From Marinobacter koreensis (GTDB lineage: Bacteria > Pseudomonadota > Gammaproteobacteria > Pseudomonadales > Oleiphilaceae), in contig NZ_JAKZAJ010000006.1 in the NCBI RefSeq assembly GCF_023156285.1, positions 124,001 to 188,000 of the forward strand: a stretch of 64,000 bases of DNA, written 5' to 3'. Under the pieces are notes generated by a model. The model had not been told where the DNA came from. It did not search any database and worked only from the letters and a program-made list of their open reading frames with translations. The translations under genes and the position numbers were made by a program. This document shows positions 30,144 through 30,273 of this stretch, piece after piece (within the stretch, counting starts at the first letter, position 1; every line of letters starts with the position of its first letter).

Positions 30144-30166
30144 ATCGTTTGACACCCTCAAACGAT
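30144..30166. repeat. 9-bp inverted repeat overlapping the -35 region
   Basis: ATCGTTTGA and TCAAACGAT flank CACCC. The left arm contains the first bases of the TTGACA -35 and the right arm runs into the Fur box. It may be an additional operator or part of a divergent leader. Confidence 0.5.
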
Positions 30167-30182
30167 AATGATTATCATTAAC
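30149..30182 (+). promoter_or_regulatory. Promoter with Fur box (iron-repressed)
   Basis: A perfect -35 TTGACA is at 30149-30154. A Fur box at 30164-30182 matches the 19-bp consensus at 17 positions and contains the exact 7-1-7 palindrome TAATGAT-T-ATCATTA. The best -10, GATTAT at 30170-30175 (spacer 15), lies inside the box, so bound Fur would block RNA polymerase. The only plus-strand product is a short transcript that ends at 30273. Confidence 0.72.
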
Positions 30183-30273
30183 CCACCAAATGACGACGGT
30201 CGTATCATTTGGTCTCTCTCATCAGGAGCTAAATGCTCTCTTCAACCCCCGCCCCTGGCGGGGGTCTTTTTTT
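30183..30273 (+). ncRNA. Candidate Fur-regulated small RNA
   Basis: A segment of about 91 nt without a credible reading frame. It starts just after a Fur-controlled promoter. It folds into a 5' stem-loop (9-bp outer stem 30185-30193 / 30205-30213, plus a CGA/TCG inner stem and a TA bulge), then a pyrimidine-rich single-stranded linker (30214-30244), then an intrinsic terminator with seven Ts. This layout is that of an Hfq-dependent, iron-repressed sRNA like RyhB or PrrF, but I do not recognise it as a member of either family. The end points are inferred from the promoter and terminator. Confidence 0.62.
30245..30273 (+). terminator. Intrinsic terminator of the candidate sRNA
   Basis: ACCCCCGCC and GGCGGGGGT form a perfect 9-bp stem with a CCT loop, followed by C and seven Ts on the plus strand. 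On the minus strand there is no T-run, so it mainly serves plus-strand transcription. It abuts the rhomboid stop codon. Confidence 0.9.

Follow-up and report, generated by a model that had tools for sequence, protein, structure and literature searches.

A candidate Fur-repressed, iron-sparing small RNA conserved across Marinobacter and probably related to PrrF

The RyhB RNA of Escherichia coli is an iron-repressed, iron-sparing small RNA (sRNA). The described systems relevant here further include PrrF1 and PrrF2 of Pseudomonas, with targets such as sdhC and sodB (PMC8534726, PMC13104616), ArrF of Azotobacter, which has been named a PrrF homologue (PMC2851614), and NrrF of Neisseria, which represses petABC and sdhCDAB through base pairing in the leader (PMC5586341). 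Here we analyze a stretch of 64,000 nucleotides (hereafter, the window) from a Marinobacter-type genome (3.78 Mb, 9 contigs), in which positions 30185..30273 of the plus strand are predicted to encode a small RNA of about 89 nt that acts in trans, is repressed by Fur and would serve iron sparing. We put the probability of this reading, which relies on comparative sequence analysis, at roughly 0.87; that the locus is an unannotated member of the known functional class of Fur-regulated iron-sparing sRNAs is well supported. Searches of the open-access literature yielded no report of such an RNA in Marinobacter, and at the gathering threshold Rfam detects only tRNAs in the whole window. A whole marine genus of iron-poor water thus gains a candidate post-transcriptional regulator of iron use, with named targets that are directly testable.

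The predicted RNA is flanked by two genes on the minus strand, namely, the divergent upstream neighbour yeaC (DUF1315, Pfam PF07023; 29813..30106) and the convergent downstream gene for a rhomboid protease (Pfam PF01694; 30272..31129), the stop codon of which abuts the T tract of the sRNA terminator. A pattern scan identified the -35 box TTGACA at 30149..30154 and the -10 box TATCAT at 30173..30178, both on the plus strand; the pair scores 11 of 12 consensus positions with an 18-base spacer, and transcription would start near 30184-30187. The first-pass annotation of this DNA correctly reported the perfect -35 box; the weakness it saw in a -10 spacing of 15 bases disappears because it had taken another hexamer, the best -10 box being TATCAT with its 18-base spacer. 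The Fur box GATAATGATTATCATTAAC (30164..30182, no strand assigned) overlaps the spacer and the -10 box, covering the downstream half of the promoter. On the plus strand, 17 of its positions agree with the 19-bp consensus, the value originally given, and on the minus strand even 18; it encloses the exact 7-1-7 palindrome TAATGAT-T-ATCATTA (30166-30180) that had likewise been noted, and is the top-scoring box in the window. With up to three mismatches allowed, the 16-mer GATAATGATTATCATT is matched at the sRNA locus only, compared to a chance mean of 0.25 in the window. The genome encodes Fur (E 2e-44), and an hfq gene is present as well.

A DNA search of the genus detected the element in 121 of the 124 Marinobacter genomes (108 of 110 among good assemblies), the closest copy, from genome G058, being 91% identical. 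The combination of yeaC and rhomboid flanks is common to 69 of the 70 genus loci and recurs in two further genera of the family. In the alignment of 70 distinct copies, the -35 box is conserved and the Fur box is near invariant; together with the seed of the RNA, these elements hardly vary while the surrounding bases do. One locus (L047, from G120) carries a tandem pair of sRNA copies, at 1001-1134 and 1234-1349, resembling the PrrF1/PrrF2 arrangement of P. aeruginosa; by analogy, a longer read-through RNA similar to PrrH could possibly be produced from this pair.

The predicted fold of 30180-30273 has an energy of -36.6 kcal/mol, compared to -21.2 +/- 3.0 for shuffled sequences (z -5.1), in agreement with the earlier description of about 91 non-coding bases with a 5' stem-loop and a 9-bp terminator followed by seven Ts. 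The 5' hairpin (30185..30213) is the counterpart of the second PrrF hairpin, and the intrinsic terminator (30245..30273) consists of a 9-bp stem (30245-30265) with a 3-base loop and the seven Ts. Between them lies a short middle hairpin, GGAGC-UAAAU-GCUCU (30225..30239), which the first-pass annotation had left off its list of parts. All 67 distinct transcripts fold with the three hairpins, the 5' and the middle ones included. What had been described as a pyrimidine-rich linker is indeed present and is the most conserved part of the sRNA: it is the seed UCUCUCAUCAG (30215..30225), which is identical in nearly all copies and is predicted to be single-stranded between the 5' and middle hairpins, with a mean unpaired probability of 0.85 across the 67 transcripts.

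Both helices that were analyzed carry compensatory changes. In an alignment made from 40 of the copies (A1), 6 of 14 pairs show changes on both sides and 97.1% of the cells pair; the covariation value of 0.213 was equalled by none of 500 shuffles, which do not correct for relatedness, and all slid registers, which do, gave lower values, none of them near. In the terminator, 5 of the 8 modelled pairs show compensatory changes. The alignment of Marinobacter genomes that had been proposed as a check thus recovers a conserved Fur box and hairpins with structure-preserving changes. Oleiphilus-type copies, found by pattern scan, keep the Fur box, the seed, the T tract and both neighbours, and their 5' hairpins are quite different; hence the seed is the part that is retained, whereas the hairpin can be replaced.

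Among the described RNAs, PrrF resembles the Marinobacter sRNA most clearly, and each of the two finds the other in covariance model searches. The Rfam PrrF model (RF00444) scores 32.9 bits at the sRNA locus, under the gathering threshold of 90, and 20.6 bits once the Fur box is left out; its best match in the genus reaches 43.3 bits, and in five further Marinobacter genomes it picks up this locus with E values of 7e-6 to 2e-4. In the opposite direction, a model built from Marinobacter transcripts only and hence blind to the Fur box (R1) finds the 17 loci that pass the Rfam PrrF cut-off, with scores up to 43.6 bits, and in a genome-wide search finds PrrF at the Rfam positions with an E value of 9e-7, which indicates homology of the transcripts independently of the Fur box. 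The part order of Fur box over the promoter, hairpin, core and terminator is shared. The core agrees in part, as UCUC(C/U)UCAUCAG followed by a GCUAA-like sequence: of the PrrF core UCUC-C-UCAUCAGGCUAAUCACGG, the Marinobacter RNA keeps UCUC-UCAUCAG and GCUAA and lacks the AAUCACGG part, and the intermediates hold both: the loci L114, L115 and L120 carry UCUCUCAUCAA(A)GCUAAUCACGGUU, which joins the Marinobacter sequence UCUCUCAUCA to the PrrF sequence GCUAAUCACGG. PrrF differs in being longer (about 115 nt compared to about 89 nt), in occurring as two copies where Marinobacter usually has one, in its neighbour genes and in an extra first hairpin, which in the alignment of the Rfam model to the Marinobacter sRNA is deleted, so that two hairpins before the core are not found. 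Several matches were set aside: L111 and L116, matched by R1 in the absence of a Fur box, look like chance terminator matches, and several non-Marinobacter matches of the collection scan, such as L330 and L378, look like chance as well.

Given that both model directions match, that intermediates exist and that the parts occur in the same order, the sRNA probably is a distant homologue of PrrF by descent, without the first PrrF hairpin. It would nevertheless not be filed in RF00444, because the gathering score and the first hairpin, two defining tests, fail. An independent analogue, that is, a Fur-controlled iron-sparing RNA of separate origin that resembles PrrF solely through its Fur box, pyrimidine-rich seed and terminator, would account for the low Rfam scores, with and without the Fur box, and for the fact that none of the PrrF loci fetched has a yeaC or rhomboid neighbour; moreover, L111 attains an E value of 1.6e-6 with R1 without having a Fur box, so a single E value of this kind is no proof. 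However, such a separate origin appears unlikely in view of the reciprocal retrieval of loci, the intermediates and the common order of parts. The first-pass annotation recognized neither family in the sequence and called for a search with both Rfam models: for RyhB its judgement holds, the RyhB model being unmatched up to E 10, whereas with respect to PrrF the RNA is probably a distant homologue and not merely an analogue. What RyhB has in common with it is the iron repression and iron sparing predicted here; it differs in the lack of any match to its model. The remaining low-scoring Rfam hits, among them anti-hemB and the rnk leader, owe their scores chiefly to the terminator region and were disregarded.

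Two further explanations dispense with a regulatory RNA altogether. The Fur box is palindromic and precedes yeaC by about 58 bases, so that it might serve this divergent gene, with the hairpins being merely an intergenic terminator region; but from the box to yeaC the minus strand shows nothing that resembles a promoter, in contrast to the score of 11/12 on the plus strand, and the conservation of the seed and hairpin exceeds the needs of a terminator, all of which makes this reading quite improbable, even if dual control of the sRNA and yeaC by the box is conceivable. A short coding gene could be read from the open frame that begins at the ATG in CCAAATGACG, yet AAATG is lost in 9 of the 67 copies, the frame of the seed relative to it varies in the rest (39/17/2), and the base changes keep the stems; with frames that differ between copies, we rejected the peptide reading, to which hardly any probability attaches. 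The functional analogy to RyhB and PrrF that was originally proposed is, by contrast, supported by the conservation in the genus, the compensatory changes, the Fur and Hfq genes and the conserved sites at iron-protein genes described below.

For an unbiased ranking of targets, 362 gene starts were called with a crude gene caller in the window and in about 385 kb of sampled stretches, together about 10% of the genome, and the open stretch UGGUCUCUCUCAUCAGGAGCUAA was scored against positions -40 to +15 of each. The gene for the Rieske protein, petA, ranks first of the 362, with -28.5 kcal/mol compared to a background of -13.7 +/- 3.6, and sufB ranks third in seed pairing. When both genes were fetched from 26 genomes, petA was found to keep CCUGAUGGGAGA, which forms 12 pairs with the seed region, one of them G-U, in each of the 25 leaders read, against a background of varying upstream bases; in sufB, GAUGAGAGA or a close variant is retained, at a distance from the start codon that changes by several bases. 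For neither petA nor sufB did any of 400 shuffled seeds reach the mean pairing of the true seed (z -6.5 and -4.8, respectively), although purine-rich ribosome-binding sites naturally match pyrimidine-rich seeds and shuffling accounts for base content alone. The inferred PrrF regulon of P. aeruginosa could be relevant in this context: PA4430, which we take to be the cytochrome b gene of the bc1 operon, would fit the targeting of petA. Along with sdhC, it belongs to that regulon (PMC8534726). Fur control and a petA site, both predicted here from the DNA, are also shared with NrrF, the sequence relation to which is covered by the Rfam comparison; the NrrF site in petA spans -43 to -30, whereas the Marinobacter site lies at the Shine-Dalgarno region.

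Being targets of PrrF and RyhB, sodB and sdhC were tried first. Their leaders contain GAGAGA-type purine tracts in all 26 genomes; the pairing energies are ordinary, no better than that of the median gene, and just the exact runs are suggestive, with 5 and 10 of 400 shuffles, respectively, giving runs as long. Accordingly, we discarded the two genes as strong targets, and their pairing with the sRNA is weakly supported. A NiFe hydrogenase-like large subunit gene (L229, position 14884, plus strand) ranks 17th of the 362 by pairing energy and is a possible further target.

A genus-wide pattern search for the 10-base complement of the seed, placed 2 to 16 bases before an ATG, gave mostly two to four matches per genome, one of which is the opposite strand of the sRNA itself; the backward control mostly gave none. 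The 20 matches chosen and fetched comprise 11 gltD genes, which carry a 4Fe-4S domain, one nirS (cytochrome cd1), one radical-SAM gene and one gene for PhoX, and in the remaining 6 no gene start was found behind the match. The complement is found right in front of gltD across many species; in the host genome, CTGATGAGAG-CACC-ATG precedes the gene. Complementarity of the seed to iron-protein mRNAs that is conserved and exceeds chance was thereby found for petA, sufB and gltD. An exact 10-base complement in the host genome (L121) was left uncounted, as it is antisense inside a long open frame. In genome G020, nirS and, some 4 kb from it, a radical-SAM gene that fits nirJ both have the 10-base complement before the start codon (L216, L217), and matches with similar spacing occur in G044 and G045, pointing to denitrification as an iron-controlled process in some species. 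The PhoX family of alkaline phosphatases consists of iron enzymes, and the seed complement CTGATGAGAGAGGCACC-ATG at the phoX gene in L225 is a possible link between the use of iron and of phosphorus. Two genomes that are 100% complete, G021 and G066, contain neither a match to the sRNA nor a site with the seed complement plus ATG; the RNA and its target sites may have been lost jointly.

Taken together, the promoter architecture and its conservation suggest that, when iron is available, Fur-Fe(II) would occupy the box over the promoter and block it, and that the RNA of about 89 nt would be made when iron is lacking. The U-rich terminator, together with the presence of hfq, points to pairing assisted by Hfq, in which the open seed UCUCUCAUCAG would contact iron-protein mRNAs at or just upstream of their ribosome-binding sites. 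Of the putative targets, petA (for the Rieske subunit of the bc1 complex), sufB and gltD have the best support, and some species would add nirS, nirJ and phoX. The petA and gltD sites overlap the Shine-Dalgarno region, where pairing would block translation. For sufB, the site is located upstream of the Shine-Dalgarno sequence, and the effect could have either sign; repression would be unexpected, as low iron often increases SUF rather than decreasing it. Less iron would then be spent in respiration, in nitrogen assimilation and, in some species, in denitrification.

Beyond the locus itself, we are slightly inclined to see in PrrF a single branch of an ancient sRNA family that spans the order, with a UCUC(C/U)UCAUCA core and a freely replaced 5' hairpin, in which copies multiply into tandem arrays, the bc1 complex, SUF and glutamate synthase are among the main targets in Marinobacter, and the Rfam cut-off sees little outside the Pseudomonas branch. 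Such a family, with its replaceable hairpins and arrays, would be a more interesting prospect than the locus alone. Outside Pseudomonas-type genomes, most relatives escape the Rfam PrrF model, and the intermediates reported here now supply material for rebuilding it. Tandem arrays of matches to the PrrF model were observed in other families of the order, with five matches in G374:C3:1547549-1548839 and three each in G224:C8:352239-352926 and G476:C9:177648-178496. Finally, a record titled Halomonas sp. SAT58 (PAKW01000046.1; L334) contains a Marinobacter-type copy of the sRNA along with its neighbours, and the name of this record is probably wrong.
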